Below, one piece after another: positions 11,915-33,680 of a DNA stretch of 45,287 nt. The notes under the pieces are model-generated. The model saw nothing but the letters and a program-made list of their open reading frames with translations. It did no database searches and had not been told where the DNA came from. Source of the DNA: Lachnospiraceae bacterium (GTDB taxonomy: Bacteria > Bacillota > Clostridia > Lachnospirales > Lachnospiraceae); NCBI GenBank assembly GCA_022799355.1, contig JAAWOG010000025.1, positions 1-45,287 of the forward strand, written 5' to 3'. Every line of letters begins with the position of its first letter. Position 1 is the stretch's first letter. The translations under genes were made by a program, and so were the position numbers.

Positions 11915-12943
11915 ATGAAAGCATTGATGAAGATGGGACGATGGCAGGATAAGGGGAATATGCGGCTTCGTGAGACGGAGCGCCCCGTGCCCGGAGCGGA
12001 CGAGGTACTGATCCGGGTAAAGGCGGCGGGAATATGCGGAACGGATATGAAGATATGGCAGGGTATGACATGGAGCAACCCGCCGGTAATTCTGGGACAT
12101 GAGTACTCCGGTGTGATCGAGGAGGTGGGGAGTGAGGTGAAATGCCTTATGCCCGGGGACCGGGTGGTGAGCGAGACGGCTCAGAGTGTCTGCGGCGTCT
12201 GCGAATACTGCAGGACGGGGAAGGAGTTGATGTGCGATAAACGGCTCTCCATCGGGTATGGCGTAAACGGTGCGATGGCGGAATATATCAAAGTACGGCA
12301 GGGTATCGTCCACAGGATTCCGGACACACTGAGTTTTGAGAAGGCGGCACTCTGCGAACCCTTAGCGGTGGCGCTGCACGCGCTCTTTGACCACACGAAT
12401 CTGACGGCTTCGGATAAGGTGCTGATTACAGGACCGGGCGCAATAGGGCAGTTAGTCGCACAGGCGGCAAAATCCGCAGGCGCAGCGGCGTATCTTGCGG
12501 GGCTTGCAAAAGATCAGGCAAGGCTGGATGCGGCAAAAAAGGCGGGAGTGGATATGACGCTGACGGATCTGTCCGGGGAGGCGGTAAAAGAGATCACGGG
12601 AGGGAAGGGGTTCGATGTGGTGCTGGACTGCAGCGGTGCGGAACAGGCGATCCGTCAGGGGATGAGGAGCGTGAAAAAGACCGGGACATTTATTCAGGTG
12701 GGCCTGACAAAACCGGAATTGACAATAGATTACTCCCTGCTTACCGAAAAGGAAATCCGGATCGTCGGAACCTTTGGACACAGATGGCATAACTGGGAGA
12801 TGGCAATCGATCTGATGGAGAGCAAAAAGGTGAATACGGATCATCTGATTACCGGAACATACCCCCTTAGTAAGTGGGAGCAGGGTTTTACGGATATGCA
12901 GGAGGGCAGAGGAATCAAGATTCTGCTCTGTCCTGAACAATGA
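11915..12943 (+). CDS. Zinc-dependent medium-chain alcohol dehydrogenase (first)
   Basis: A 342-residue NAD(P)-dependent polyol or alcohol dehydrogenase of the sorbitol/threonine dehydrogenase branch. The catalytic zinc loop is GICGTDMKIW with GHEYSG (GHE). The structural zinc lobe is CGVCEYCRTGKELMC (four Cys). The Rossmann motif is GPGAIGQL. It is the first gene of the long run. The start follows a GAAGGA site about 6 nt upstream. It and the next gene are paralogues lying head to tail (13-nt gap). Such enzymes typically oxidise a secondary hydroxyl to a ketone, which would suit production of a ketose for the transketolase encoded downstream. The substrate is inferred only. Confidence 0.9.
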   Translation: MKALMKMGRWQDKGNMRLRETERPVPGADEVLIRVKAAGICGTDMKIWQGMTWSNPPVILGHEYSGVIEEVGSEVKCLMPGDRVVSETAQSVCGVCEYCRTGKELMCDKRLSIGYGVNGAMAEYIKVRQGIVHRIPDTLSFEKAALCEPLAVALHALFDHTNLTASDKVLITGPGAIGQLVAQAAKSAGAAAYLAGLAKDQARLDAAKKAGVDMTLTDLSGEAVKEITGGKGFDVVLDCSGAEQAIRQGMRSVKKTGTFIQVGLTKPELTIDYSLLTEKEIRIVGTFGHRWHNWEMAIDLMESKKVNTDHLITGTYPLSKWEQGFTDMQEGRGIKILLCPEQ

Positions 12944-12956
12944 GGAGGCGGGAGAC

Positions 12957-14003
12957 ATGAAAGCGATTATCAATTATGAAAATGGTTCCCGGAAGGTGAG
13001 CTATATGGAGGCTGATACGCCGGAGCCGGCTGCGGGACAGGTGAGGATCAAAGTGGCATACTGCGGTATCTGCGGAACGGATCTTCATATTTTTGAGGGA
13101 GACGGCGGTTATCCGACAAAACCGCCGGTCATACTGGGACATGAGGTTTCGGGCGTTGTGGAAGCTGTGGGAGAGGGGGCAGATCCCTCCTGGCTTGGGA
13201 AAAGAGTTGTCAGCGAGACCTATTATCATACCTGCGGGCGCTGTATGTACTGCAGGAGCGGACACGGAAACCTGTGCCCGGAGAAAAAATCGATCGGCAG
13301 CGCAGTAAACGGCGGGATGGCGGAATATGTGATTGTTCCGGAAAAAAATCTGCATCCGATCCCGGAAGGCATCAGCTTAAGGGAGGCGGCAATGACGGAG
13401 CCTCTTGCCTGCTGTGTGCAGGGGGTTCTGGAATTTGGAAATATCTGTCCGGGTGACCGGGTGCTGATTACCGGTCCCGGTGCTATCGGGCTGATGTGCC
13501 TGCAGGTTGCGGTGAGTGCCGGAGCGGTGGTGATCGTTGCGGGAACCGCCGTGGATAAAGAAAGGCTGGAACTGGCAAAAGAGTTGGGGGCGGCAGAGAC
13601 CGTTTACTCTGACCGGCCTGATGCCGGGGAGAAGATCGCGGCATTTTGCGCACCTTTCGGGGCGGATATCGTTTTTGATTGTTCCGGTGCGGGGGCGGCG
13701 ATAAACATGGGGCTTCATGTGATCAGAAAAGGCGGGCGTTATGTGCAGGTGGGACTGACGGGAAAGCCTGTGGAACTGGATATGAACCTTATCACATTAA
13801 AGGAACTTTCCGTCATGGGAACCTATGCTCAGAAACCGCAGTGGTGGGTGAAAGCACTGGACCTGGTGGAAAGGGGAGAGGTAAAGCTGGAGCCGTTGAT
13901 CAGTGATGTTTATCCGCTGGAAGAATGGAAAAAAGCATTTGACGGGTATCGGCATAAAACAGGTTTTAAATATTTACTGGAAGCCGCCGGAGAAGATGTA
14001 TGA
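12957..14003 (+). CDS. Zinc-dependent medium-chain alcohol dehydrogenase (second)
   Basis: A 348-residue paralogue of the gene before it. It has the catalytic zinc loop YCGICGTDLHIFEG with GHEVSG, the structural zinc Cys cluster CGRCMYCRSGHGNLC, and the Rossmann motif GPGAIGLM (about residue 174). The SVMGTYAQKP block near the C-terminus is typical of sorbitol/threonine dehydrogenase-like enzymes. The ATG at 12957 has GAGGAGG upstream. With two closely related dehydrogenases side by side, the enzyme could be heteromeric, or the two could act on successive hydroxyls or epimers of the imported substrate. Confidence 0.9.
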   Translation: MKAIINYENGSRKVSYMEADTPEPAAGQVRIKVAYCGICGTDLHIFEGDGGYPTKPPVILGHEVSGVVEAVGEGADPSWLGKRVVSETYYHTCGRCMYCRSGHGNLCPEKKSIGSAVNGGMAEYVIVPEKNLHPIPEGISLREAAMTEPLACCVQGVLEFGNICPGDRVLITGPGAIGLMCLQVAVSAGAVVIVAGTAVDKERLELAKELGAAETVYSDRPDAGEKIAAFCAPFGADIVFDCSGAGAAINMGLHVIRKGGRYVQVGLTGKPVELDMNLITLKELSVMGTYAQKPQWWVKALDLVERGEVKLEPLISDVYPLEEWKKAFDGYRHKTGFKYLLEAAGEDV

Positions 14004-14076
14004 GGGGTGATTTCGGCAGGGGTATAGAAATATTTAAAATACAAAAACTACTATATTTAAAGGAGGAAAAAGAAAT

Positions 14077-15429
14077 ATGTGTAAAGAAAAAGTGAAGCGT
14101 CTGTTAAGTCTTGTACTTGCGGCAGTGATGACAGTGAGTATGACAGCCGGCTGCGGAAACAGTGGTTCCGCTACGGAGGATTCTTCTGCGAATGGCACGG
14201 AGGAAACAAATGTACGGGCGGAAGATCCTGCTGCATCCGGCGATGTGGTAAAGATCGGCAGTTTATGGCCTCTGACCGGAGGTTCGGCGACGATCGGACA
14301 GCAGCATGCGGACGGGGCTGAGGCGGCTGTCAGGGAGATCAATGAAAACGGCGGTATCAAATCCATGGGCGGTGCGCAGATCCGGCTTGTTGTGGCGGAT
14401 ACGGAAACGGCGGCCGACAAAGCTTCCGTAGCCTGTGAACGCCTGATCACAGATGATAAAGTGAGCATGATCATCGGGGCGTATAACAGTACCTGCTGTA
14501 TTTCTTCTTCCGAGGTTGCCCAGAAATATTCCATTCCCTATATTTCTCAGGGGGGTGTGGCGACAGCGGTTACGGACAGAGGCTACGATTATGTGTACCG
14601 TATCAATAATACCGCAACCTATGATGTGCTTGAGATGATCACGGCACTTGATACGATCTGTGAGGAAAATAATCTGGACACGCTGACCTACGCCCTTGTA
14701 TATGAAAATTCCGACTGGGGCGCTGACAATGCCCGTATATGGAAAGAAGCGGCGGATGAGAGAGGATGGACCTGTGTGTTGGATGAACCGGTTACCAACG
14801 GCCAGGCGGATATGACATCTCAGGTACTTAAGGTGAAAGATTCCGGGGCGGATGTTCTCAACGTTTCTTTCTATACGGATGATTCCATCGTATTCTCAAA
14901 CGCGCTCTATGCCAACCAGGTGGATATTCCCTGGGGCGTATGGTCCGTGGGCGGCGGCTGGCAGGATGCGGCTTTCTTTGAAGCCCTCGACCAGGATGTC
15001 TACAATTATCATTTTGTACAGGAAGACTGGGATATGTGCGGCGTCCAGAACCATGAGTGGATTCAGGAGATTGCGGCAGAATGCAAAGACACATATGGGT
15101 ATGAGATGACGTCCTTCTTCGCCCAGGGCTGGACGGCGGCATATGTGGCATACTATGCGCTGGAGGCTGCGGGCACTACGGATTCCGAGCCGCTCCGGGA
15201 TGCCATCAAGGGGATTGAGCTGCATAATGACGGCACTGACAGGGCGCTTCTGAGCGGCTATTCGGCAATCGTATTTGATGAGAAAAACCAGAATACGTTT
15301 GACGGCGGCGCTACCGGCGGTACCATCGTACAGTATCAGGATGGAGTTGCGGTTCCGTTATATCCCGCTGAACACAGTGTGGAAGGAAATACACCTGTTC
15401 TGCCCATACCTTCTTTCGGTGAGAGGTAA
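14077..15429 (+). CDS. ABC transporter substrate-binding lipoprotein (Liv/Peripla_BP_6 type)
   Basis: A 450-residue extracytoplasmic solute receptor anchored by lipid. The signal peptide ends in the lipobox TAGC, with Cys26 as the lipidated residue, followed by a Ser/Glu-rich linker. The mature part starts VKIGSLWPLTGGSATIG, typical of the type I periplasmic binding fold (LivJ/AmiC/UrtA relatives). The next four genes encode the matching permeases and ATPases. Relatives of this receptor class bind amino acids, amides, urea, short acids and some polyols, so the ligand is open. It has a very strong site (AAAGGAGG) before the ATG. The hairpin after it may let its mRNA accumulate over that of the permeases. 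Confidence 0.93.
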   Translation: MCKEKVKRLLSLVLAAVMTVSMTAGCGNSGSATEDSSANGTEETNVRAEDPAASGDVVKIGSLWPLTGGSATIGQQHADGAEAAVREINENGGIKSMGGAQIRLVVADTETAADKASVACERLITDDKVSMIIGAYNSTCCISSSEVAQKYSIPYISQGGVATAVTDRGYDYVYRINNTATYDVLEMITALDTICEENNLDTLTYALVYENSDWGADNARIWKEAADERGWTCVLDEPVTNGQADMTSQVLKVKDSGADVLNVSFYTDDSIVFSNALYANQVDIPWGVWSVGGGWQDAAFFEALDQDVYNYHFVQEDWDMCGVQNHEWIQEIAAECKDTYGYEMTSFFAQGWTAAYVAYYALEAAGTTDSEPLRDAIKGIELHNDGTDRALLSGYSAIVFDEKNQNTFDGGATGGTIVQYQDGVAVPLYPAEHSVEGNTPVLPIPSFGER

Positions 15430-15479
15430 TAAGCGGCGTGCGCTGCTGACTACGGGGTTAGCCGCAACATAAAAAAGCA

Positions 15480-15518
15480 GGCGGCAGGGGGAGATAAGTC
15501 CCTCCTCCCGATGCCGCC
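15480..15518 (+). terminator. Intercistronic hairpin after the binding-protein gene
   Basis: GGCGGCA pairs with TGCCGCC, with an inner GGGGAG/CTCC stem. No U-run follows. This is the usual position for a hairpin that protects the binding-protein mRNA or partly ends transcription before the permease genes. Confidence 0.5.
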
Positions 15519-15538
15519 CGCAGGGAAAGGAAAGTAGG

Positions 15539-16432
15539 ATGAATAATATATTTATAGCGGTTTTACACGGATTAATCCTTGGCGGAGCATACAGTTTGAT
15601 AGCCGTCGGACTGAGCGTTATCTTCGGCGTTGTGCGCATCATCAATTTTTCTCACGGCGCCATGCTGATGGCTTCCGCCTTTGCGTACTATGAACTGTTT
15701 ACACGTTTCCATGTCGATCCGTTTTTTGCGATGTTTGTGATCGCTCCGGCATTTTTTATCATTGGCTTTCTTTTGCAGAAGGTGGTGATCCGCCCGCTGC
15801 TGATCCGTGAGAGCGCCAGTGTGCTGGAACCTACCAGCGTTATGCTCTTTACGATCGGGCTGGATTATGCGATCTGCAACCTTTACTTAATGATATATAC
15901 TTCAAGATATAAAACGCTGAATACATGGTCCTATAAGAATTATTTCAGGGCTTTTGACAACAGCTTTGTGACACAGTATTCGAGGCTGATTGCTTTTATC
16001 CTGTGTTTCGTGGTGGCATTCGGGCTCTGGTTTATCATCAACAGGACGGAACTGGGAAAGAAAATTCGTGCCGTCTCCCAGAACCGTGATGCAGCGGCAC
16101 TCTGCGGTGTGGATGTGCACACAACTTACGGTATCGCCTTTGGGCTGGGAACGGCGGCTCTGGCAATTGCAGGCGCGGCAATGTCCTCCTTTTATCTGGT
16201 ATCGCCGTCCGTAGGAAACATATTTGGCACAAAATCGTTTATGATCGTCGTGCTGGGCGGGCTCGGAAGCATCCCCGGCGCAATTGTCGGAGGCATGATC
16301 TTCGGGCTGATTGAGCAGGTGGCCGCGCAGTTTATTCCGTCCACAATGGCGTCCATGCTGTCGTTTGCGGTATTTCTGGTAGTGCTGATCCTGAAACCGG
16401 AAGGGCTTTTGGGGCGAAGGAAAAGAAAGTGA
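15539..16432 (+). CDS. livH: ABC transporter permease, LivH type
   Basis: A 297-residue inner-membrane permease with about eight hydrophobic segments. LivH hallmarks are LILGGAYSLIAVGLSVIFGV at the N-terminus, INFSHGAM, and the EAA-like loop GLGSIPGAIVGGMIFGLIE near the C-terminus. It forms the translocation pore with the LivM-type partner encoded 12 nt downstream. The gene name follows the family; the cargo need not be a branched-chain amino acid, given the dehydrogenase/transketolase context. Confidence 0.93.
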   Translation: MNNIFIAVLHGLILGGAYSLIAVGLSVIFGVVRIINFSHGAMLMASAFAYYELFTRFHVDPFFAMFVIAPAFFIIGFLLQKVVIRPLLIRESASVLEPTSVMLFTIGLDYAICNLYLMIYTSRYKTLNTWSYKNYFRAFDNSFVTQYSRLIAFILCFVVAFGLWFIINRTELGKKIRAVSQNRDAAALCGVDVHTTYGIAFGLGTAALAIAGAAMSSFYLVSPSVGNIFGTKSFMIVVLGGLGSIPGAIVGGMIFGLIEQVAAQFIPSTMASMLSFAVFLVVLILKPEGLLGRRKRK

Positions 16433-16444
16433 GGATTGCAGATA

Positions 16445-17479
16445 ATGACTTATAAAGGAAATTCGATTTTTAAAGGAAAATTTTTCGTCTGGCTGACATT
16501 GATCATGCTTGCAGTCGTACCGCTTTTTTCCGGGCTTTACTGGCAGGGTATTCTGGTGCTGGTCTGTTATTACGCCTATGCGGCTATCGCGTGGAATTTC
16601 ATATGCGGCTATGCGGGGACCATGTCCCTTGGCCATTCGGTCTATATGGGGATCGGCGGATATATTTCCACGATCATACTGGAGACAAAGGGTGTCTCAC
16701 CCTGGATCGGCATGCTTGCAGGCGCAGCCATTGCCATGGTATTGGGTGTGGTGATCAGCTATCCCACCTTCCGGCTGAAAGGACCGTATTTTACGCTTTC
16801 TTCCATCGCCATCGTGGAACTTCTGGGAACCTTTATTTCCAACACGGAGAGTCTTGGCCCTATTCCCATCAAAGGCGGCTCCGGCTGGTCTTTGTCCCAG
16901 ACGGGCAACCAGGCGGCAATGTTTGAATTTTCCGGCAAGCTGCCTTACTTTTACATTGCCTTTGGGCTGATGGTGATCGGACTTTTTGCAACATACCGAA
17001 TGTCCGAAAGTAAGCTCGGATATTATCTGGTGGCAATCAGAAGCGATGATGATGCGGCAAAAAGCCTCGGGATCAATGTGACAAAGTATAAACTGATCGC
17101 CATGGCAATCAGCTGTTTTATGATCTCCATTGCAGGTACCTTTTATGCCCAGTATTTCCGCTATATCGGGCCGGACCGTATTTTCAGCTATGATCTTTCC
17201 GTGCAGGTGGCGCTGATCGCGCTGATCGGAGGACAGGGAACCGTTATGGGACCTATCATAGGCGCCGTTATACTGGTGCCTTTGTCCGAAATGCTGTCCG
17301 CTAAGTTTGCGGGGCAGATGTCGGGGTTGAATCTGTTTCTCTACGGCGTTGTCATGATGCTGGTAGTATATTTCATGCCGCACGGTTTCGGCGAGCATGT
17401 AGTGTCCATACTGCAGAAGGCGGAAGAAAAAATATTCGGCAGAAAAAAAGCCGGGGAGTCAAACGGAAAGGAGAAGTAG
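16445..17479 (+). CDS. livM: ABC transporter permease, LivM type
   Basis: A 344-residue second permease with about nine to ten membrane segments and family blocks [38 protein letters not shown] and [19 protein letters not shown]. The ATG at 16445 was chosen over an in-frame TTG at 16436 because the GAGG site at 16431-16434 suits it. It ends 2 nt before the next start, so translation is tightly coupled. Confidence 0.92.
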
Positions 17480-17481
17480 GC

Positions 17482-18216
17482 GTGGCAGTTATTGTAAAAA
17501 TGGAACATGTTACGAAGCAGTTCGGCGGCCTGACGGCGGTGAATGATTTTTGCGGCGAAATAGAGGAAGGCTCCATTGTGGGGCTGATCGGTCCCAACGG
17601 CGCAGGCAAGACGACACTGTTTAATATGATAGCAAACTATTATCATCCCACCAGCGGCAGAATTTATTTTAAAGATAAGGATATCACCGCCGCAAAGACG
17701 GAGGATATGGCAAAAATGGGGCTGGCAAGGACATTCCAGGTGACAAAGCCCTTTGGCGATATGTCCGTTTTGCAGAATATTATGGTGGGAGGATTCCTGC
17801 ATATCAATAAAGCGGCCAAAGTGGAGGAGAAGGCGCGGAGAACGGCGGCGCTTGTGGGGATGGACTGTGATCTGGACATGAAAGCGGCAAGTACCACGAC
17901 GGTAGATAAAAAGAAGCTGGAAATTGCCAGGGCGCTTGCGGTGGAACCGAAGCTGATTTTGCTGGACGAGGTGATGGCGGGCTGCAATCCCCAGGAAAAA
18001 CTGGAACTGGTGGAAACCTGCCGCAAGGTCCGGGATGCGGGCGTGACGATTATTATCATCGAACACGATATCAAAACGATCATGTCGCTGTGCGATAAGA
18101 TCTATATCCTCCACCGCGGAGAAAAACTGGTGGAAGGGACACCGGAGGAAGTGGCGAACGACAAACGCGCGGTCAGCGCATATCTTGGGGAGGATTTTGA
18201 CAATGCTGAAAATTAA
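17482..18216 (+). CDS. livG: ABC transporter ATP-binding protein, LivG type
   Basis: A 244-residue cytoplasmic ATPase. Walker A is GPNGAGKTT (37-45) and Walker B is [15 protein letters not shown]. The start is GTG behind AAGGAG. The usual ABC signature (LSGGQ, or LPYGQ in LivG) is replaced by [15 protein letters not shown], and the residue after the Walker B Glu is Val in place of Pro. I recall a LivG subgroup with VDRKRLE and DEVMAGL, so this is probably a subgroup feature and not decay. It overlaps livF by 14 nt. Confidence 0.9.
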
Positions 18217-18907
18217 CGAATTGCGAACCGGATATAACGGCGGCGAGATCGTCCACGGTATTTCCATGGAGGTGCCGGATAGAAAGATCGTGGCTATCGT
18301 AGGGGGCAACGGTGCGGGGAAAAGTACGCTGATTAAGGCGATCACCGGCCTGATACAGACGGCGGGCGGTACAGTGGAGTTTGACGGAGAAAAGCTGACC
18401 GGGCTTGCGCCGGATAAGATTATGCAGAAAGGCGTCTGCCTGGTGCCGGAGGGGCGGCAGTTGTTTCCGAATATGACCGTCGAGGAAAATATGGATATCG
18501 GTTCTTGTACAAAGGAGGCAAAGAAACACAGAAAAGAGAGTATGGAGGAGATGTTTGAGATTTTTCCGCGTCTTAAGGAAAGAAGGAGACAGCTTACCGG
18601 AACGCTCTCCGGCGGTGAACAGCAGATGGTAGCGACAGCCCGGGCGCTGATGGGAAGGCCGAAGCTTCTGATCATGGATGAACCCTCCTGGGGGCTTGCG
18701 CCGATTCTGGTAAATGAAATGTTTCAGACCATTGAGATGGTCAGGGACAGGGGAACGGCAGTTCTCATTGTGGAACAGAATGTGGGAAAGACGCTGGCTG
18801 CCTCCGACTGGGGTTATGTGATCGAAAACGGCGCCGTCGTGATGCAGGATGTGGGGAAGAAACTTTTGCAGGATGAAGGGCTGAAAAAGGCATACCTGGG
18901 AATATAA
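18203..18907 (+). CDS. livF: ABC transporter ATP-binding protein, LivF type
   Basis: A 234-residue second ATPase of the importer. Walker A is GGNGAGKS (about 34-41), the signature LSGGEQQM is intact, Walker B is LLIMDEPSWGLAP, and the H-loop lies in VLIVEQNV. The ATG at 18203 has GGGGAGG about 9 nt upstream and is preferred over an in-frame TTG at 18185. It completes the five-gene importer (receptor, two permeases, two ATPases). Confidence 0.92.
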   Translation: MLKINELRTGYNGGEIVHGISMEVPDRKIVAIVGGNGAGKSTLIKAITGLIQTAGGTVEFDGEKLTGLAPDKIMQKGVCLVPEGRQLFPNMTVEENMDIGSCTKEAKKHRKESMEEMFEIFPRLKERRRQLTGTLSGGEQQMVATARALMGRPKLLIMDEPSWGLAPILVNEMFQTIEMVRDRGTAVLIVEQNVGKTLAASDWGYVIENGAVVMQDVGKKLLQDEGLKKAYLGI

Positions 18908-18966
18908 ACAGGCGGCAGGGGCGGTTTTGAATGGGGATATGCAGTTGGAAAGAATGGAGGATGATG

Positions 18967-19344
18967 ATGTATCAGTTTTCAGCAGAGAGCGTAAAAGGCA
19001 GGGTGATCAACGAAGGTACTGTCCATGAGCGGCGGATCAAACTTTTTGCCTCCCCCGCCTCGAAGGTAAAAAGAGATGCCTACGGCTGCGGGATGGCACT
19101 GATCGATCCGGGGAAAATACATGAGGAGCATGCGCACCCGGACAGCGAGGAGTTGATTTTTGTGGTGCAGGGCACCGGGATCGGAACGGTGGGTGGTGAG
19201 GAACTTAGGATAAAGCCGGGGGATTTGATTGCCATAGAGAAGGGGGAGCCTCATACGTTTACCAATACCGGAAAGGAGCAGCTTTGGCTGTACTGGGTAT
19301 ATTCGCCCCCCGGGCCGGAAAAACGGTTTTTGGAACAGGAGTGA
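18967..19344 (+). CDS. Small single-domain cupin protein
   Basis: A 125-residue cupin. Motif 1 is HEEHAHPDSEELIFVVQGTG and motif 2 is GDLIAIEKGEPHTFTNTG, so metal-binding His and Glu are present. Three ATGs lie in a row (18961, 18964, 18967); the last is best spaced from GGAGG at 18956-18960. Such cupins act as sugar or keto-acid isomerases, lyases or ligand-binding proteins. Its place just before the transketolase genes suggests a role on a sugar-like intermediate, possibly a keto/aldo isomerisation. No firm function can be given. Confidence 0.8.
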   Translation: MYQFSAESVKGRVINEGTVHERRIKLFASPASKVKRDAYGCGMALIDPGKIHEEHAHPDSEELIFVVQGTGIGTVGGEELRIKPGDLIAIEKGEPHTFTNTGKEQLWLYWVYSPPGPEKRFLEQE

Positions 19345-19375
19345 TATAAAAGCAGTGAAGCAGGAGGGATTAAAA

Positions 19376-20233: not shown

Positions 20234-20234
20234 T

Positions 20235-21197
20235 ATGTATAAATTAGTAGAAAAACCATATGATGATCCGGCGGAAATGCGGAAAGTGTTCTGTGATACG
20301 CTGATGGAGCTGGCAGAAAACAACAGGGAGATCATTGTACTGGACGCGGACCTGATGGGAGCCATGGGGACAAAGCCTTTCGGCAAAAAGTTTCCGGAAC
20401 AGACGGTTGACTGCGGCATTCAGGAGGCGAATATGGTCGGGGTTGCGGCAGGGCTATCCACGGTCGGGAAGATTCCGTTTGTACATACATTCGCGCCTTT
20501 TATCACCCGCCGCGCCTGTGACCAGGTTTTTGTGTCCGGGGCTTACGCGAAACTGAACATCAAACTGGTGGGTTCCGATCCCGGCATTACGGCGGCATTA
20601 AACGGCGGTACGCATATGCCCTTTGAGGATATGGGCATTATGAGAGGGATTCCTGAGATGACTGTTTTAGAACCAACGGATACGGTGATGCTGGCAGATA
20701 TAATCCGTCAGATATCAGCCGTGTACGGCATGCATTATATGAGGCTGGTACGGAAACAGTCCGTAAGGATCTATGAGGAGGGCTCCGCCTTTGAGATAGG
20801 CAGGGCGGTAACGCTCAGGGAAGGGAAGGATGTGACGATTATCGCTTCCGGTTATTGCGTGGCTGAGGCGCTGAAGGCGGCAGAAGAACTGAGTACGAAG
20901 GGGATCGGCGCGAGGGTGCTGGATATGTTTACCTGGAAACCTGTTGACGCGGAGGCGATCATACGGGCGGCGCGGGAGACGGGCGCCATTGTCACGGCGG
21001 AAAATCATAATGTCATAAACGGACTTGGCAGCGCAGTCGCGGAGGTTTTAGTGAAAAACAGCCCGGTTCCGGTGGAGATGGTCGGTGTACAGGATCAGTT
21101 TGGTGAAGTGGGACCGGTCGGCTATCTTGCGGAGCGGTTTGAACTGAGGGCGGAAGATATTGTGGCAGCCGTACAAAGGGTGCTGATGCGCAAGTAA
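20235..21197 (+). CDS. Transketolase, C-terminal subunit
   Basis: A 320-residue C-half with the pyrimidine-binding domain and the transketolase C-terminal domain. The catalytic Glu that activates TPP is in VDCGIQEANMVGVAAGLS. The phosphate/acceptor-side block GSDPGITAALNGGTHMPFEDM and the C-terminal domain (VTIIASGYCVAEALKAAEEL) are present. The ATG at 20235 has GGAAGGAG upstream, so an in-frame start at 20157 inside the N-subunit gene is rejected. Together with the N-subunit it would transfer a two-carbon unit from a ketose to an aldose phosphate. Confidence 0.92.
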   Translation: MYKLVEKPYDDPAEMRKVFCDTLMELAENNREIIVLDADLMGAMGTKPFGKKFPEQTVDCGIQEANMVGVAAGLSTVGKIPFVHTFAPFITRRACDQVFVSGAYAKLNIKLVGSDPGITAALNGGTHMPFEDMGIMRGIPEMTVLEPTDTVMLADIIRQISAVYGMHYMRLVRKQSVRIYEEGSAFEIGRAVTLREGKDVTIIASGYCVAEALKAAEELSTKGIGARVLDMFTWKPVDAEAIIRAARETGAIVTAENHNVINGLGSAVAEVLVKNSPVPVEMVGVQDQFGEVGPVGYLAERFELRAEDIVAAVQRVLMRK

Positions 21198-21257
21198 AAA
21201 AGAACAGATGTTATTAAATGAAAGAGTCTGAGAAAAAACAGGCGGATGGGAAGAGAA

Positions 21258-22286
21258 ATGAAAGCATTGGTTATTGAGCATCCGGATAAGATGCATATTG
21301 TTGAAAGAGAAATACCGACGATCAGGGAAGGCGAAGCGCTGATCAGGGTACGGTATATCGGGATATGCGGAACGGATATACACGTTCTGCACGGGCATCA
21401 TCCCACAGCCACATTTCCCAGAATCCCCGGGCATGAGTTCGTCGGGGAGCTGGTGGATATAAAAGGGGACGGCAGCGAGCGGTTTAAAAGAGGCGATCAG
21501 GTGGCGGCACAGGAACTTATCACCTGCGGTGTTTGCGACGCCTGCGCGAAAGGAGAGGACAATGCCTGCACCGGCCTGCGGATTATAGGCGTCCATGCGG
21601 ACGGCGGATTTGCGGAATATGTAAAGGTTAAGACGAGGAAACTGTTTCGGATACCTGAGGGTGTTGACTTAAAGCGGGCAGCGCTGATTGAGCCTTTGGC
21701 GGTGGCGGTGCATGATGTCCGTATGAGCGGCATGCAGGTAGGAGAAAATGTTCTGGTGATCGGAGGCGGTCCTATCGGGCTGTTAATCGGTCTGGTGGCG
21801 CAAAGAGGCGGCGCGGGAAAGGTAGTGGTTTCCGAAGTGGTTCAGAGCAGGAGGAAGCTGGCGGAGGAGTTCGGGTTCCTTGCGCTCAATCCGCTGGAGA
21901 AGGATTTTGAGGAAAAGCTTCTTTCGGTAAACGGCGGAAAGCCGTATGATGTGGGATTTGAGGCGGCAGGTGTTCCGGGAGCCATTACGACGCTTGTGGA
22001 TTACATAAAAAACACGGGAACGATCGTACAGATCGCCATGACAAAGGGCCCCTATCCGGTGGATACGGGAAAGATATTCGCCAAGGAACTGAAGATTCAG
22101 GGCGTGCGTATCCATAATCAGTATAATTTCGGCGGCGCCGTGAATATGGTAGTGGACGGCGGGCTCGATGATCGTCTGGACAAGCTGATCAGCAGGGTGT
22201 TTGACTTTGAGAAAGTGACGGAAGCGTTTGAGTATGCGGAAAAGTGTAAGGATGCGTTTAAGGTACTTGTGAAAGTAGGAAATTAA
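21258..22286 (+). CDS. Zinc-dependent medium-chain alcohol dehydrogenase (third)
   Basis: A 342-residue enzyme of the same superfamily as the first two genes of the run but of a different branch, closer to L-threonine/galactitol/2,3-butanediol-type dehydrogenases. It has IGICGTDIHVLHG with GHEFVG, a structural zinc cluster CGVCDACAKGEDNAC, and the Rossmann motif GGGPIGLL. ATG 21258 is preferred over 21246 because GGGAAGAG lies before it. With three dehydrogenases, the substrate probably carries several hydroxyls, or it needs oxidation before and reduction after the transketolase step. Confidence 0.88.
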   Translation: MKALVIEHPDKMHIVEREIPTIREGEALIRVRYIGICGTDIHVLHGHHPTATFPRIPGHEFVGELVDIKGDGSERFKRGDQVAAQELITCGVCDACAKGEDNACTGLRIIGVHADGGFAEYVKVKTRKLFRIPEGVDLKRAALIEPLAVAVHDVRMSGMQVGENVLVIGGGPIGLLIGLVAQRGGAGKVVVSEVVQSRRKLAEEFGFLALNPLEKDFEEKLLSVNGGKPYDVGFEAAGVPGAITTLVDYIKNTGTIVQIAMTKGPYPVDTGKIFAKELKIQGVRIHNQYNFGGAVNMVVDGGLDDRLDKLISRVFDFEKVTEAFEYAEKCKDAFKVLVKVGN

Positions 22287-22335
22287 GCAAAGATGGAGAT
22301 TTGTGCAGCAAAACAGCACGGAAATGAGGAGAAAT

Positions 22336-22740
22336 ATGAATTTACTGGCACATGAAAAAACAATGTTTAAAAAGCAGATGCCGGGCAGAACGGTGACCTG
22401 GGTACAGACACCGGAAACCACGGGAGGACAGTACACTTCCGTCTGTGTGACGGAATATGAGCCGGGGGCAAGGGCAAAACCGGCCCACGCCCATGATAAT
22501 GGGGAAGAAACGATCTATGTTGTTTCGGGAGAAGGGAAAGCGAAAGTCGGAGACGGGGTATATGATTTAAAACAGGGTTCCGTACTGCTGTTTCCCCAGG
22601 GGATTCCCCATATGGTCTGGAATACGGGAAGCGGGACGCTGAAACTGGCATGTTTTTATGCGCCTCAGCTATCAGCCATTGAATATACGTTTTATGAAGA
22701 TTTTGACTTTGATGAATTTAAGGGACAGGAGGATGGGTAA
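22336..22740 (+). CDS. Second small cupin protein
   Basis: A 134-residue single cupin. Motif 1 is KPAHAHDNGEETIYVVSGEG and motif 2 is GSVLLFPQGIPHMVWNTG, with metal ligands HxH, E and H visible. The start follows GAGGAG. It is different in sequence from the cupin at 18967 but similar in layout. It lies directly before the 4-hydroxybutyrate genes (2-nt gap to the next start) and could act on the transketolase product or bind a pathway metabolite. No function is assigned. Confidence 0.8.
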   Translation: MNLLAHEKTMFKKQMPGRTVTWVQTPETTGGQYTSVCVTEYEPGARAKPAHAHDNGEETIYVVSGEGKAKVGDGVYDLKQGSVLLFPQGIPHMVWNTGSGTLKLACFYAPQLSAIEYTFYEDFDFDEFKGQEDG

Positions 22741-22742
22741 AG

Positions 22743-23879
22743 ATGAAACAGATGATGATCAGACCGGAGATTCAGTCATATGGTACTTTTCAGGCATTTG
22801 CAGAAGAGTATGCGTTGGATGAGAACGACGTTATTTTGACAAATGAATATATTTATCATCCGATTATGGCGAAAGAGCATCTGAAGTGCCATGTGATCTA
22901 TCAGGAAAAATACGGGGCAGGAGAGCCTACGGACAGTATGGCGGAGGCGATCTTACGGGAAGTGAAAAAGTATCGGGCGAGAAGGATTATCGCTGTGGGA
23001 GGCGGTACGATCATTGATATTGCTAAGGTACTTGTCCCGGAAGGCGCGGAAGGCATAGATGAGATGTATGATAAGATGGCTTCCCTGAAAAAGGGAAAGC
23101 AGCTTATTATCCTGCCGACGACCTGCGGTACGGGAAGTGAAGTGACAAACATTGCAGTCTTGAACAGGACAAAGCTGGGAACAAAGCAAGGGATGGTGTC
23201 ACCGGCGATGTTCGCGGACCGGGCGGTGCTGATTCCGGAATTTCTTAAAGGGCTCTCCTATAAAGTGTTTGCGACCAGCTCTATCGATGCGCTGGTCCAT
23301 GCCGTGGAATCTTATCTGAATCCCGCAGCCACCGTATTTTCCATGATGTATTCCGTCAGGGCGATCGAGATGATTCTGGCGGGGTACTGCAGGATCGCGA
23401 AGGAGGGGCAGGAGGCATGGAAAAAGGATGCGGAGGCTTATCTGACGGCGAGCTGTATGGCGGGCATCGCCTTTTCCAATAACGGCTGCGGCACCGTTCA
23501 CGCGATGGCTTATGCCATTGGCGGAAAATACCATGTGCCCCACGGAGAGAGCAATTATCAGTATTTTGTTCCGGTTTTAAGGCTGTATGAGGAGAAGGCG
23601 CCGGGAGGCAGGCTGGAGGAACTGAAGGTTCTTTTGAAAAGGTGTATGGCAGCAGGCGGGTTTGCCGCCGAAGAGGATGACAAAAGCGCTGTTGTCCTGC
23701 TGGGGGAACTGTTAAATCAGGTGCTTCCCGCAAAGAAAATGCGTGAGTACGGTGTAGTGCAGGAGGATATTGCTCCTTTTGCGCAAAGTACGGTGGACTA
23801 TCAGCAGAGACTGCTGAAAAACAGTTATATTCCCCTTGGGAAAGAGGAGATTCAGGCTGTTTATCAGAGCTGCCTTTGA
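22743..23879 (+). CDS. 4hbD: 4-hydroxybutyrate dehydrogenase (iron-type alcohol dehydrogenase)
   Basis: A 378-residue group III (iron-dependent) alcohol dehydrogenase. It reads like clostridial 4-hydroxybutyrate dehydrogenase: DVILTNEYIYHPIM near residue 30, YQEKYGAGEPTD, the cofactor loop AVGGGTIIDIAKVL, LPTTCGTGSEVTNIAV, and the metal-ligand His residues in SSIDALVHAVESYL, GTVHAMAYAIGG and YHVPHGESN. It interconverts succinate semialdehyde and 4-hydroxybutyrate with NAD(H). Its two downstream neighbours carry out the next two steps, which strongly supports the call. Confidence 0.88.
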   Translation: MKQMMIRPEIQSYGTFQAFAEEYALDENDVILTNEYIYHPIMAKEHLKCHVIYQEKYGAGEPTDSMAEAILREVKKYRARRIIAVGGGTIIDIAKVLVPEGAEGIDEMYDKMASLKKGKQLIILPTTCGTGSEVTNIAVLNRTKLGTKQGMVSPAMFADRAVLIPEFLKGLSYKVFATSSIDALVHAVESYLNPAATVFSMMYSVRAIEMILAGYCRIAKEGQEAWKKDAEAYLTASCMAGIAFSNNGCGTVHAMAYAIGGKYHVPHGESNYQYFVPVLRLYEEKAPGGRLEELKVLLKRCMAAGGFAAEEDDKSAVVLLGELLNQVLPAKKMREYGVVQEDIAPFAQSTVDYQQRLLKNSYIPLGKEEIQAVYQSCL

Positions 23880-23966
23880 GTGCGGACAGCAGGGCGGCGG
23901 AATTTGGGAAGATAAAATACGGCAAAACAGAGTATAACGGATCAGTTGAATAAGGAGGCTAAGGCT

Positions 23967-25418
23967 ATGGCAATGATGACAGGTGAGCAGTATGTTGAGA
24001 GCATGCGGGCGATGAAATTGAAGGTGTATATGTTTGGTAAAAAAATTGAAAATCCCGTGGACGATCCGATCCTTCGCCCATCTTTAAATTCGGTGAAGGC
24101 AACCTATGATCTGGCACAGAATCCGGAGTATGAGGATCTGATGACGGCAACCTCTATTTTTACGGGGGAAAAGATCAATCGTTTTTTACATATTCATCAG
24201 AGCACGGAGGATCTGATGAATAAAGTGAAAATGCAGCGCCTCTGCGGGCAGCAGACGGCGGCATGTTTCCAGAGATGCGTGGGCATGGACGCGTTTAACG
24301 CCGTTTACAGCACAACGTATGAGGTAGATAAGAAATACGGAACTTCCTACTTTGAGAATTTTAAAAAGTTTGCCACATACTGTCAGGAGAAGGATTTTAC
24401 GGTGGACGGCGCCATGACGGATCCCAAGGGAGACAGGGGGCTTGCGCCCCACGCCCAGGCAGATCCCGATATGTATCTCCATGTGGTGGAGAGAAGAAAG
24501 GACGGTATCGTTGTCCGGGGGGCAAAGGCACACCAGACAGGCATTATCAACTCCCAGGAGGTCCTTGTTATGCCCACCGTTTCCATGGGACCGGAGGATA
24601 AGGATTATGCGGTTGCGTTCGCGGTTCCGACGGATGCGGAAGGGATCAGCATGATTATCGGAAGACAGTCCTGCGATACGAGGAAACTGGAAGGGACCGA
24701 ACTGGATGTGGGAAACAGCGAGTTTGGCGGTGTGGAGGCTCTTGTGATTTTTGACGATGTGTTTGTGCCCAATGACAGGATCTTTTTAAATGGCGAGGAT
24801 GAGTTTGCGGGGATGCTGGTGGAGCGTTTTGCGGGATATCACAGACAGAGCTATGGCGGCTGCAAAGTGGGTGTGGGCGATGTTCTGATCGGCGCTTCGG
24901 CTTTGGCGGCGGAGTATAATGGCGTTGCGAAGGCGTCCCATATCAAGGACAAGCTGATTGAGATGATGCATCTGAATGAAACATTATACTGCTGCGGTAT
25001 TGCCTGCTCCGCGGAGGGGAATAAAACACAGTCCGGTAATTATATGATAGGTCTGCTGCTTGCGAATGTATGTAAACAGAATGTCACAAGGTTCCCTTAT
25101 GAGATCGCGAGGCTGGCGGAAGATATTGCCGGCGGTATTATGGTAACGGCTCCTTCCGAGGCGGACCTGAGAGGAGAAGAGACCGGTAAGTGGGTGCGGA
25201 AATATCTTGCCGGTGCATCCGATGTACCTGTTGAAAACAGGATACGCATCCTCCGTCTGATTGAAAACCTTTGTCTTGGCACGGCGGCGGTAGGGTACCG
25301 CACGGAGTCCATGCACGGGGCGGGGAGTCCCCAGGCGCAAAGAATCATGATCTCCCGGCAGGGGAATCTGCCGTTTAAGAAGGAGATGGCGAAGAAAATT
25401 GCGAAGATCAGGGAGTGA
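23967..25418 (+). CDS. abfD: 4-hydroxybutyryl-CoA dehydratase / vinylacetyl-CoA delta-isomerase
   Basis: A 483-residue [4Fe-4S]- and FAD-containing dehydratase converting 4-hydroxybutyryl-CoA to crotonyl-CoA. The ligand residues known from the Clostridium aminobutyricum enzyme (Cys99, Cys103, His292, Cys299) are found here as C100 and C104 (in CFQRC) and H292 and C299 (in GYHRQSYGGC). Long blocks match the family, such as GAMTDPKGDRGLAP and GAKAHQTG. The ATG at 23967 has AAGGAGG 8 nt upstream; an in-frame TTG at 23946 is rejected. The enzyme is oxygen-sensitive, so an anaerobic host is expected. The Fe-S helper-like gene at the end of the run may serve it. Confidence 0.95.
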   Translation: MAMMTGEQYVESMRAMKLKVYMFGKKIENPVDDPILRPSLNSVKATYDLAQNPEYEDLMTATSIFTGEKINRFLHIHQSTEDLMNKVKMQRLCGQQTAACFQRCVGMDAFNAVYSTTYEVDKKYGTSYFENFKKFATYCQEKDFTVDGAMTDPKGDRGLAPHAQADPDMYLHVVERRKDGIVVRGAKAHQTGIINSQEVLVMPTVSMGPEDKDYAVAFAVPTDAEGISMIIGRQSCDTRKLEGTELDVGNSEFGGVEALVIFDDVFVPNDRIFLNGEDEFAGMLVERFAGYHRQSYGGCKVGVGDVLIGASALAAEYNGVAKASHIKDKLIEMMHLNETLYCCGIACSAEGNKTQSGNYMIGLLLANVCKQNVTRFPYEIARLAEDIAGGIMVTAPSEADLRGEETGKWVRKYLAGASDVPVENRIRILRLIENLCLGTAAVGYRTESMHGAGSPQAQRIMISRQGNLPFKKEMAKKIAKIRE

Positions 25419-25462
25419 CCGGCGGCAGGTGCTGACGAAATGACATAGGAGGTCAGGTTTGT

Positions 25463-26767
25463 ATGGAATGGGAAAAAATTTATCAAGATCGGAGCATGAG
25501 CGCCAGGGAAGCGATCAGGCTGATTCAAAATGGAGACCGGGTTGTGATCGGACATGCGGCGGGTGTGCCGCTGGCGATTACGGATGTGATGGCGGAGCAT
25601 AAAGAAGATTACAGGGATGTGGAGATTATGCAGATGGTTTCAATGGGGAATGCGAAATTTGCCGAACCCGGAACGGAGGGACATTTCCACTTAAATTCCA
25701 TGTTTCTCGGCGCCCATTCAAGGCAGGCGGTAAAAGAAGGGCGGGGTGACTTTACACCCTGCTGCTTCTCGGAAATTCCGGGGCTGTTTCGGGATTATCT
25801 TCCGGTGGATGTTGCGATTATCATCGTGACGCCGCCGGATAAAGACGGCTATTGCAGCTGCGGTATTTCCGTGGACTATACACTGCCCGCGGCCAGATGC
25901 GCAAAGAGGGTTATCGCGCAGGTAAATCCCAGGATGCCGCGGACGCATGGCGATACGTTTCTCCATGTGTCGGAGATCGACGCTTTTGTGGAAATAGAAG
26001 AACCCATTTTGGAACTTGCTATCCCGAAGATCGGGGAAGTGGAAAGGGCTATCGGTGAGAACTGTGCAAAACTGGTCCATGACGGCGATACGCTGCAGCT
26101 CGGCATCGGGGGCATTCCGGATGCGGTGCTCCTGTTTCTGAAAGGGAAGAAAGATCTGGGCATTCATTCGGAAATGATTTCTGACGGTGTTGTGGAGCTG
26201 ATCGAGGCAGGTGTCATTACCAATAAAAGAAAGACGCTACACCCCGGCAAAACGGTAGTAACTTTCCTGATGGGAACAAAGAGGCTCTATGATTACGCGG
26301 ATGATAATCCTTCCATATATATGTGCGGTGTTGATTATGTGAATGATCCTTTTGTCATAGCCGGGAACGATAATCTTATTTCCATCAATTCCTGTATTCA
26401 GGTGGATCTTCAGGGGCAGGTGGCCGCCGAGAGTGCAGGGCTCTCTCAGATCTCGGGCATAGGCGGACAGACGGACTTTGTCAGAGGCGCAAGGCGCAGC
26501 AAAGGAGGGAAATCCATTATGGCGATCGCTTCCACGGCAAAAAAGGGAACGGTTTCCAAAATTGTTCCTTTTCTGGATGAAGGGGCGGCGGTCAGCACAT
26601 CGAGGACGGACGTGGATTATGTCGTGACGGAATTCGGTATCGCCGCGCTGCGCGGGAAATCGCTGAAACAGCGCGCGGCCGCGCTGATCAGAATTGCTCA
26701 TCCTGATTTTCGTAAAGGGCTGCGGGAGGAATATGAAAAAAGGTTTCACTGCAAATTTGAGGGATGA
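25463..26767 (+). CDS. abfT: 4-hydroxybutyrate CoA-transferase
   Basis: A 434-residue class I CoA-transferase of the acetyl-CoA hydrolase/transferase family. It moves CoA from acetyl-CoA (or butyryl-CoA) to 4-hydroxybutyrate. The catalytic Glu is E237 in GIHSEMISDGVVEL (Glu238 in the C. aminobutyricum enzyme). Further family blocks are LQLGIGGIPDAVL, GGQTDFVRGA and YGIA-type EFGIAALRGKSL near the C-terminus. AGGAGGT precedes the start. The gene follows the dehydratase by 44 nt, so dehydrogenase, dehydratase and CoA-transferase form a complete module from succinate semialdehyde to crotonyl-CoA. Confidence 0.94.
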   Translation: MEWEKIYQDRSMSAREAIRLIQNGDRVVIGHAAGVPLAITDVMAEHKEDYRDVEIMQMVSMGNAKFAEPGTEGHFHLNSMFLGAHSRQAVKEGRGDFTPCCFSEIPGLFRDYLPVDVAIIIVTPPDKDGYCSCGISVDYTLPAARCAKRVIAQVNPRMPRTHGDTFLHVSEIDAFVEIEEPILELAIPKIGEVERAIGENCAKLVHDGDTLQLGIGGIPDAVLLFLKGKKDLGIHSEMISDGVVELIEAGVITNKRKTLHPGKTVVTFLMGTKRLYDYADDNPSIYMCGVDYVNDPFVIAGNDNLISINSCIQVDLQGQVAAESAGLSQISGIGGQTDFVRGARRSKGGKSIMAIASTAKKGTVSKIVPFLDEGAAVSTSRTDVDYVVTEFGIAALRGKSLKQRAAALIRIAHPDFRKGLREEYEKRFHCKFEG

Positions 26768-26830
26768 ACGCCGGTCCGTTTTTTGAGAAAAAGGACGGGG
26801 GAAATACCGGAAGCAAAAGAAAGGGATATC

Positions 26831-27127
26831 ATGATGGAAGAAAAGGAAAAGGTGGTTGAACGGATTCTGGCGGAGCATGTGGAGCCTTATCTTGCCGGAC
26901 ATGGCGGCAGCCTTTCTCTTACGGAGATCCGGGATCATATTGCCTATGTAAAGTTTACGGGGCACTGCAGCGGATGTCCTTCGGCGAAGTATACGTTGGA
27001 GACGGTTGTAAAAGAGGAAGTGCTGAAGTATACTGACGTGGTAGAGGATGTTAAGCTGGTGGAAGAAGTGGGCGATGAACTGTATGAATTTGCGAAAGCG
27101 TTGCTGAGGCGGGAAATATCGGTCTGA
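26831..27127 (+). CDS. NFU-type Fe-S scaffold/carrier domain protein
   Basis: A 98-residue stand-alone NifU C-terminal (NFU) domain. It has HVEPYLAGHGGSLSL and the cluster-binding GHCSGCPSAKYTL (CxxC), which binds a [4Fe-4S] cluster between two monomers. Such proteins deliver clusters to apo-enzymes. Its place right after abfD/abfT suggests it matures the Fe-S dehydratase. The start at 26831 (ATGATG) is used; its ribosome binding site is weak (AAGGG). Family is fairly certain; the partner is inferred. Confidence 0.82.
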   Translation: MMEEKEKVVERILAEHVEPYLAGHGGSLSLTEIRDHIAYVKFTGHCSGCPSAKYTLETVVKEEVLKYTDVVEDVKLVEEVGDELYEFAKALLRREISV

Positions 27128-27209
27128 TATGATTTATTTCACAGGAAAAATTTTCTGCCGGACACTGAAGCGGCAAAGGCGCAGCAGGTTTAGTAGGAGG
27201 AAAGGGACT

Positions 27210-27455
27210 ATGAAGGTCGGCTTGAAATTTTGTGGCGGGTGCAACCCTTATTATGACAGAGGAAGGGCGGTGCGGAACTTAAAGGAGAGGTTTCCCCGGT
27301 ATTTCTTTGAAGCGGTGCAAAAGGAAGGCTGCTATGACGTAGTATTGCTGATCTGCGGTTGTACAAGGGGCTGCGTGGAGCATTACCGGGAGGCTGAAGC
27401 CGACAGATATATTGTTCTGAAAGACAGGAAAGAATTTGCAGCGCTTTCGTTTTAA
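27210..27455 (+). CDS. Small Cys-rich protein with a CGGCNP motif
   Basis: An 81-residue protein with a very strong ribosome binding site (AGGAGG) before the ATG at 27210. It has KFCGGCNPYYDRGRAVRNLK at the N-terminus and LLICGCTRGCVEH near residues 47-59, so two Cys clusters that could bind an Fe-S cluster or metal or act as a thiol relay. Similar CGGCNP-type small proteins occur in anaerobes, from memory, but I know no assigned function. As last gene of the run, before a strong terminator, it probably belongs to the 4-hydroxybutyrate pathway, perhaps in cluster handling for the dehydratase. Confidence 0.7.
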   Translation: MKVGLKFCGGCNPYYDRGRAVRNLKERFPRYFFEAVQKEGCYDVVLLICGCTRGCVEHYREAEADRYIVLKDRKEFAALSF

Positions 27456-27555: not shown

Positions 27556-27587
27556 TGCCGGTCCCGCTCCATGTGGCGGGACCGGCA
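27556..27587. terminator. Strong terminator ending the 4-hydroxybutyrate gene run
   Basis: A perfect 12-bp GC-rich stem (TGCCGGTCCCGC / GCGGGACCGGCA, 8-nt loop) followed by TATTTTAAG. It separates the catabolic run from the AT-rich RloA/RloB region. Confidence 0.85.
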
Positions 27588-27805
27588 TATTTTAAGCAGA
27601 GCGGTGTTTATTGGAAAGTTAAAAACAGACATGTATTGAAATGGAATGCATGTAGATGTGTAAAAATATAATTTTTACAAAAAAATAAACCTATAAATGA
27701 GGAAAATATGAATTAATGTGTTGATTTATACGAAAAATAGAATATAATATACATGAGAATAAGATTCGGATTATGAATGAAAGACCTGTAAGTAAGGAGA
27801 TTATT
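27588..27805. other. AT-rich gap before the RloA-like gene
   Basis: Between the terminator and the next start the DNA is much more AT-rich than the flanking operons, with runs of A. Only a promoter (27721-27748) is recognisable. Confidence 0.6.
27721..27748 (+). promoter_or_regulatory. Promoter of the RloA/RloB-like pair
   Basis: TTGATT (27721-27726), a 16-bp spacer and TATAAT (27743-27748), about 58 nt before the ATG. Confidence 0.6.
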
Positions 27806-33659: not shown

Positions 33660-33680
33660 GAATTTATGTTGAATTGGTTA

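Follow-up and report, generated by a model that had tools for sequence, protein, structure and literature searches.

A candidate catabolic operon linking a split transketolase to 4-hydroxybutyrate genes in a Lachnospiraceae bacterium

The contig JAAWOG010000025.1 of a Lachnospiraceae bacterium (GenBank assembly GCA_022799355.1), which at its full length of 45,287 nucleotides is called the window here and represents contig 10 of genome G000 in our comparison set, carries a run of 17 genes, all on the plus strand between positions 11915 and 27455 (Table 1). The run joins a Liv-type importer, three zinc medium-chain dehydrogenases (MDR1, MDR2, and MDR3), and two cupins (cupA and cupB) to a split transketolase (tkN and tkC) and a 4-hydroxybutyrate module (4hbD, abfD, and abfT), which is followed by the genes for a NifU-like and a CGGCNP protein. 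When LivF and tkC are counted from their inner ATGs, the intergenic gaps span −14 to 109 bases. The original prediction of a codirectional, short-gap run ending at a strong terminator is borne out by the open reading frames (ORFs), the gaps, and the 13-pair stem, and the families it named (three zinc dehydrogenases, Liv importer, cupins, split transketolase, 4-hydroxybutyrate genes, and CGGCNP) were recovered by searches or translations. Its gene list needs one addition, the NifU-like gene, which was unnamed there yet is part of the run. The translation probably starts at inner ATGs in tkC (20235 and not 20157), LivF (18203), and the CGGCNP gene (27210); the codons were checked, and the choice of start is ours. 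The LivH, LivM, LivG, and LivF proteins were named from translations and context rather than by a family search. The divergent PucR-family gene keeps its position in three same-genus genomes at 82–83% identity, and its product probably regulates the run.

Table 1. Genes and signals of the run and its divergent neighbour in the window
Feature	Position	Strand	Evidence and remarks
PucR-family regulator	10052..11689	-	divergent; PF07905 92.9 bits, PF13556 59.2 bits
MDR1, zinc medium-chain dehydrogenase (Tdh/IolM-like)	11915..12943	+	NCBIfam Tdh 238.2, IolM 203.3 bits, both below cut-off
MDR2, zinc medium-chain dehydrogenase (Tdh/IolM-like)	12957..14003	+	Tdh 230.7, IolM 200.6 bits, both below cut-off
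Liv-type solute-binding protein (SBP)	14077..15429	+	family search; aligned to E. coli LivJ and LivK
LivH-type permease	15539..16432	+	translation; 95-97% identity in three relatives
LivM-type permease	16436..17479	+	translation; kept in relatives
LivG-type ATPase	17482..18216	+	translation; kept in relatives
LivF-type ATPase	18203..18907	+	start ATG 18203; listed ORF from 18185
cupA, small cupin, HxH motif	18931..19344	+	PF07883 69.7 bits
tkN, split transketolase, N-terminal half	19355..20233	+	best solved match 6yak, E 7.6e-76
tkC, split transketolase, C-terminal half	20235..21197	+	best solved match 6yaj, E 5e-81; listed ORF from 20157
MDR3, zinc medium-chain dehydrogenase, directly behind tkC	21246..22286	+	IolM 221.2, Tdh 220.1 bits, both below cut-off
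cupB, small cupin, HxH motif	22303..22740	+	PF07883 65.4 bits
4hbD, iron-containing 4-hydroxybutyrate dehydrogenase type	22743..23879	+	best solved match Cvir-Hbd2 (30sm), E 4.5e-95; NCBIfam model 97.7 bits, below cut-off
abfD, 4-hydroxybutyryl-CoA dehydratase	23946..25418	+	776.7 bits to 1u8v; possible ATG start 23967
abfT-type CoA-transferase	25463..26767	+	PF13336 225.1, PF02550 86.4 bits
NifU-like protein	26783..27127	+	PF01106 63.4 bits
CGGCNP protein	27129..27455	+	no family match; probable ATG 27210
Terminator	27556..27587	+	stem of 13 pairs, 10 of them G-C; tail TATTTTAAGC

We suggest, with a probability of about 0.6, that the run is an operon for the breakdown of a cyclitol or an acid without phosphate, in which the C4 product of the transketolase would pass through the 4-hydroxybutyrate genes to butyrate. 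From the observed gene content, conserved order, repeated linkage, and key residues we infer the reaction steps, ligand, and substrate as follows. The Liv importer would take up the acid or cyclitol, and the three dehydrogenases together with the cupins would yield a hexonate bearing a C5 ketone and a C6 hydroxyl (5-keto-6-hydroxyhexonate). The split transketolase, by analogy with the sulfo-transketolase pathway, would transfer C5–C6 to a sugar phosphate (glyceraldehyde 3-phosphate giving xylulose 5-phosphate), leaving a four-carbon aldehyde acid, which in the simplest case would be succinate semialdehyde and otherwise a hydroxylated analogue. The iron dehydrogenase 4hbD would convert succinate semialdehyde into 4-hydroxybutyrate, the abfT-type CoA-transferase would activate it, and AbfD would dehydrate 4-hydroxybutyryl-CoA to crotonyl-CoA, towards butyrate, with the NifU-like and CGGCNP proteins serving AbfD.

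The two transketolase subunits correspond to the N and C halves of the enzyme with the catalytic His and the ligands of thiamine diphosphate and metal, and both have their best solved match in the split transketolase of Carboxydothermus hydrogenoformans; six catalytic and cofactor positions are conserved in 96 of 97 tkN rows. Lower-scoring solved matches of tkC are 1-deoxyxylulose 5-phosphate (DXP) synthases and beta subunits of 2-oxoacid dehydrogenases. A 2-oxoglutarate decarboxylase making succinate semialdehyde was considered and set aside on sequence matches, since for either subunit the top solved match is a transketolase. According to an excerpt of PMC11659671, the head-group residues are RSFHR in phosphate transketolases and RAFDR in the sulfofructose transketolase. 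In our own mapping of these positions onto the tkC alignment, RAFDR occurs in 38 of 97 rows, including the window, and RSFDR in 49, while the phosphate-specific RSFHR signature is absent from the window tkC. The RAFDR residues therefore suggest that the window enzyme was probably made for an unphosphorylated acid donor with a non-phosphate head group. The loss of the D469 equivalent was tried as a mark of a non-hydroxylated aldehyde and dropped, N standing there in 90 of 91 rows.

One of the closest described systems is the sulfo-transketolase SqwGH of Clostridium sp. MSTE9 and Faecalicatena, for which the same excerpt (PMC11659671) reports RAFDR in Faecalicatena and reduction of the product aldehyde in MSTE9. 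The window shares with this pathway the split transketolase, RAFDR, and the expected removal of two-carbon pieces from an acidic ketose that carries no phosphate, and an iron dehydrogenase is present too, so that the run might be read as a sulfoquinovose sulfo-transketolase cluster. Locus L022 does resemble such a cluster by its fucose-isomerase-like, RpiB-like, and transaldolase genes, its tkC being 54% identical to that of the window (52% in L024). However, this reading is disfavoured and, in our opinion, highly improbable: RAFDR is non-specific, as its frequency among tkC rows indicates, the three L022 proteins have no match in the window (the fucose-isomerase-like and RpiB-like ones were used as stand-ins for SqvD and SqwI in place of bona fide sequences), and the window tkC groups with rows of inositol contexts on a tree which does not include L022 and L024. 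Moreover, we know of no role of AbfD in sulfonate metabolism. The window would also differ from the SqwGH pathway in that a carboxylate rather than a sulfonate is expected and in that the product would enter 4-hydroxybutyryl-CoA dehydratase instead of being excreted. The window tkC is 71% identical to that of L050 and 65–74% to those of L048, L053, and L075. In Bifidobacterium loci L066, L070, and L073, tkN–tkC of the same subfamily is followed by a 4hbD-like iron dehydrogenase gene (41–42% identity), and no abfD match was found within these stretches.

The abfD product is homologous over its full length to the Clostridium aminobutyricum enzyme (1u8v), with C99, C103, H292, and C299, which we take to be the 4Fe-4S ligands, all kept, and it is predicted to turn over 4-hydroxybutyryl-CoA. 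C. aminobutyricum and C. kluyveri run the 4-hydroxybutyrate pathway from gamma-aminobutyrate (GABA) and succinate, with sucD as the usual source of succinate semialdehyde; the window run resembles it in having 4hbD, AbfT, and AbfD and differs in having a transketolase in place of sucD. No sucD was found in any of the ten loci combining transketolase and AbfD (the window and nine others), and a search of eight genomes gave a best match of 36% identity (30% in G000). AbfD occurs in 20 of 295 genomes of the order; among 19 AbfD loci fetched from it, a transketolase is present in one, Epulopiscium locus L192 (= L061), and sucD in 4 of the 16 tested. A NifU-like gene lies directly behind abfD in L184, L186, L187, and L190, all without a transketolase match, and a CGGCNP homologue was found in 8 of the 19, none of which has a transketolase; both proteins are probably accessory to the iron–sulfur enzyme AbfD. 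Small proteins of these two types accompany abfD in the window (26783–27455), in L154 (15630–15908), and in L195–L197.

The genus has a second 4-hydroxybutyrate module (L222:6112–14808; also L221 and L179), in which a transaldolase-family gene comes first, together with a TRAP transporter, 4hbD, abfD, abfT, and nifU; in G000 it is divided between two contigs. The 438-residue transaldolase-family protein, whose label is weak (Pfam 31.1 bits against 27; no solved relative found), is possibly another aldehyde source for the module.

Of the eight other same-genus genomes drawn, four gave a match to tkC with an E value of 1e-90 or lower. In two of them (G199 and G200) the complete run of 17 genes is preserved in the same order, together with the PucR gene, and a third (G203) keeps the first 13 genes on a contig that begins or ends inside the block; the identities in these three amount to 65–97%. 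G201, the fourth genome, carries a shortened version composed of a GntR gene (minus strand), an IolN-type hydrolase (255.3 bits against a cut-off of 245), tkN, tkC, 4hbD, abfD, abfT, nifU, CGGCNP, a permease, and a FadX-like CoA-transferase. Here tkN–tkC directly abuts 4hbD–abfD–abfT–nifU–CGGCNP, and no Liv, MDR, or cupin genes were seen in the stretch; therefore, a ring-diketone hydrolase can apparently take the place of the latter, the stretch from transketolase to AbfD being retained. The nearest named tkC relatives are those of Bacterium 1XD8-76 and a Lachnospiraceae bacterium (87–88% identity). The use of cupB alone as a marker was abandoned, as it was found in only 2 of 196 genomes of the order, one being G000 itself.

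To describe the linkage more widely, we retained the best 80 of 451 loci from a tkC search of named species genomes, i.e. those most similar to the window tkC (three are the places in G199, G200, and G203, and one that in G201). Together with the window and 13 further stretches, seven of them chosen because they hold IolN, these form a non-random sample of 94 mapped loci, from which L014–L021, L034 (duplicates), L023, L026, L027, L042, and L152 were left out. AbfD lies near tkC in 8 of the 80 named loci and 10 of all 94 (the extra two are the window and L154); the corresponding counts are 17 and 20 for 4hbD relatives of at least 39% identity, 12 and 14 for MDR3 at 42% or more, 7 and 14 for IolN types, and 16 and 16 for IolD with IolB, while IolN and MDR3 occur together in none of the 94. 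Two trees speak for the proposed operon. On the tkC tree (91 rows) the label "AbfD present" takes 8 changes, of which supported branches force 7, against a mean of 9.7 for shuffled labels, so the label is scattered over the tree. On the AbfD tree (30 rows, with the context label of L179 inferred) the ten transketolase-context rows do not form one group, taking 5 changes of which at least two are forced, and the nearest relatives of the window AbfD, after its two orthologues, are the copies from the other 4-hydroxybutyrate module of the genus. Locus L053 is a relative of the window type (Liv, cupB, transketolase, MDR3, 4hbD, and abfD), and a single island of G284 combines IolG, IolM, IolN, tkN–tkC, abfD, abfT, enoyl-CoA hydratase, acyl-CoA dehydrogenase, and Etf with 4hbD, IolC, IolD, an IolB-family protein, thiolase, and 3HCDH, the IolG, IolM, IolN, IolC, and IolD all being above cut-off. 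Among the titles and abstract beginnings screened, none describes a transketolase with 4-hydroxybutyryl-CoA dehydratase or with an inositol operon.

This recurrence, spread over the tkC tree, argues against two unrelated pathways sharing one transcript, namely a transketolase route for a sugar acid and an electron sink through 4-hydroxybutyrate that succinate or GABA would supply. Such an arrangement would agree with the AbfD modules found together with sucD (the 4 of 16 tested loci) or without any partner and with the second AbfD copy in the same genome. We nevertheless consider it improbable given the direct abutment in G201 and the low identity of the best sucD match in G000 (GABA aminotransferase was not searched for).

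In the alignment of the SBP with E. coli LivJ and LivK, V and W stand at the positions of LivJ T102 and E226, presumably contacts of the alpha-amino and carboxylate groups, and the S79 equivalent is kept; at 24% identity to LivJ this alignment is of moderate certainty only. The absence of the two contacts argues against an ordinary branched-chain amino-acid importer, and an alpha-amino acid is an unlikely ligand of this protein. The window dehydrogenases score 200.6–221.2 bits on the IolM model against a cut-off of 450. MDR3 probably forms the keto acid or acts as a reductase beside it, and cupA may be an isomerase or ring-opening enzyme; a cupB homologue (55–62% identity) lies beside IolI-like genes in L048, L053, and L075. 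IolG, IolE, and IolD were above cut-off in none of the five window-genus genomes, including G000, IolB, IolD, IolE, and IolG had no match in the window, and IolN had none in the window or, at E 1e-40, in G000. Therefore, the front end would consist of MDR1–MDR3 with the cupins, or of genes located elsewhere.

The IolG–IolM–IolN inositol pathway of Thermotoga (NF041097, NF041098), reportedly described in Rodionova 2013, resembles the window in its ring dehydrogenases of the same superfamily; there ring opening gives a 5-keto-hexonate, and the IolM and IolN families are present in sister transketolase loci. The window differs from it by the lack of IolN, by the three dehydrogenases below the IolM cut-off, and by the transketolase that follows. 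A paper on the Thermotoga inositol pathway is cited in an excerpt of PMC5931981.

Across the transketolase loci, the iol-type genes IolG, IolM, IolN, IolI, IolB, IolD, and IolE were found, which points to inositol or inosose chemistry in the relatives. Locus L050 has IolM above and IolG below cut-off (272.8 against 355), then an IolN relative (84% identical to that of G201) and tkN–tkC; the IolI-like protein of L053 matches 1i60 at 8.7e-49. The 16 tkC loci with IolD have IolB and PGK in all cases, IolE and GAPDH-II in 15, IolG and the malate-racemase-type LarA in 14, and malic enzyme in 9. In Carboxydocella L084, IolD, IolE, IolG, GAPDH-II, PFK, and malate racemase LarAH6 are above cut-off, PGK passes the Pfam cut-off (357.7 bits), and malic enzyme matches a longer model without reaching its cut-off. 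These transketolase-bearing inositol operons (L084:6879–17865, L076:5596–18297, and 14 similar loci) resemble the classical IolBCDEGJ operon in having IolG, IolE, IolD, and IolB, in clostridial loci, and differ from it in that IolC is within the stretch in 0 of the 94 tkC loci as cut, being present just past the cut in the G284 island (no IolJ search was made). In these clostridial operons the transketolase may cut 2-deoxy-5-keto-gluconate to give malate semialdehyde and then malate, and the 16 loci look like an undescribed transketolase–malate branch of inositol catabolism.

Among 11 genomes searched, IolD was above cut-off in two (G284 and an Intestinibacillus bin), IolG in five (the same two and the genomes of L049, L053, and L061), and IolE in three (G284, Intestinibacillus, and the genome of L053), while the Hespellia genome of L056 had none of the three above cut-off. 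According to an excerpt of a 2025 review (PMC12482443), the conversion of myo-inositol to butyrate by gut bacteria has been seen, its pathway being uncharacterised, and Dysosmobacter welbionis and Intestinibacillus massiliensis are named as converters (marked as unpublished data). A word search of the available texts of PMC12482443, PMC8355322, and PMC7618129 did not return the word transketolase. Locus L114, from an Intestinibacillus massiliensis genome bin, contains a glycyl-radical enzyme, a radical-SAM gene, 4hbD, tkN, tkC, MDR3, abfD, and abfT, and elsewhere in this genome IolD (852.9 bits), IolG (420.7), and IolE (385.7) are all above cut-off. This gene set fits, without proving, a route from transketolase to 4-hydroxybutyrate.

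We tentatively propose that anaerobic cyclitol catabolism has a branch through transketolase, in which a 5-keto-hexonate formed by ring opening would be split into C2 and C4 units and the C4 aldehyde would leave either as malate (with GAPDH-II, PGK, malate racemase, and malic enzyme as outlet genes in the clostridial iol operons, where IolC was not seen) or through AbfD as crotonyl-CoA, the latter outlet being perhaps the pathway still missing for the conversion of inositol to butyrate in Intestinibacillus massiliensis and its kin. If true, inositol-type catabolism would gain an exit through transketolase, and butyrate formation in gut bacteria would gain a new entry; relatives of the window route may explain how some of these bacteria convert inositol to butyrate.

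Succinate semialdehyde as the product requires a keto acid free of hydroxyls at C2 and C3, such as would arise from a dideoxy-cyclitol or from 4,5,6-trihydroxyhexanoate; any other keto acid would leave a hydroxylated C4 unit. The idea of the original prediction that the transketolase releases an aldehyde for the 4-hydroxybutyrate genes gains support from the recurrent tkC–4hbD–abfD–abfT linkage, from the absence of sucD in the ten loci, and from RAFDR, while the 4,5,6-trihydroxyhexanoate that it chose is a putative substrate, the relatives pointing to inositol or inosose chemistry. Alternatively, a 2-deoxy-5-keto-gluconate-type donor would leave 3-hydroxy-4-oxobutanoate, which 4hbD would convert into 3,4-dihydroxybutyrate, with AbfD then acting on 3,4-dihydroxybutyryl-CoA (net acetoacetyl-CoA), or a glycyl-radical dehydratase acting first on 3,4-dihydroxybutyrate to give succinate semialdehyde. 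IolB and IolD beside the transketolase subfamily in 16 of the 80 named loci, a context in which the product is 2-deoxy-5-keto-gluconate, speak for this alternative, as do the glycyl-radical enzyme and radical-SAM activase-like gene adjoining 4hbD–transketolase–MDR3–abfD–abfT in L114 and the glycyl-radical homologues at 60% identity or more in 5 of the 94 tkC loci. Nevertheless, the best G000 match to the L114 radical enzyme is only 37% identical, the window AbfD is as conserved as enzymes of the sucD context, with the four 1u8v ligand residues kept, and we know of no AbfD action on a 3-hydroxy substrate; we hold the hydroxylated C4 unit to be rather unlikely. The best solved matches of the L114 glycyl-radical enzyme are choline lyase (380.5 bits) and diol dehydratase (356.7 bits). 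A glycyl-radical enzyme and a radical-SAM gene stand beside tkN–tkC–MDR3 at L114:3717–7036, L078:7349–10644, and L038:9614–11962.

Several observations weigh against the catabolic operon in which transketolase feeds the 4-hydroxybutyrate genes. Ordinary inositol donors (2-deoxy-5-keto-gluconate and 5-keto-gluconate) leave a C4 aldehyde with one or two hydroxyls, not succinate semialdehyde, and the H461/D469 changes are common to the whole transketolase subfamily rather than particular to AbfD loci. As to the 8 changes of the AbfD label on the tkC tree, 24 of 500 shuffles do as well, each change may represent a gain or a loss, and the count is inflated by some "no AbfD" loci cut by contig ends (L048, L064, and L075). 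L049, an otherwise similar run, is devoid of 4hbD and cupB, and the L053 type has extra enzymes (two dehydrogenases, a tautomerase-like and a nitroreductase-like protein, named by eye) for which the scheme has no use. The neighbourhoods of AbfD are loose, as 12 of the 19 fetched loci show no transketolase, sucD, or 4hbD match on the contig stretch (two of these, L179 and L190, truncated within 0.3 kb upstream, fall outside the sucD test), and the second AbfD copy in the window genome, 94% identical, indicates that these genes do not depend on a single source.

Just behind the run, the window carries an AAA_21 ATPase and RloB-like gene pair (27773–29792), which has no match at that place in G199 and looks like a defence-type insertion. 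Further downstream (32128–44821) there is a separate set of sugar-acid and amino-acid genes for a galactonate dehydratase, a sodium symporter, an amidohydrolase, a glycerol-dehydrogenase type protein, a BhcC-like aldolase, an IlvD/Edd dehydratase, a KDPG-type aldolase, and a PfkB kinase.

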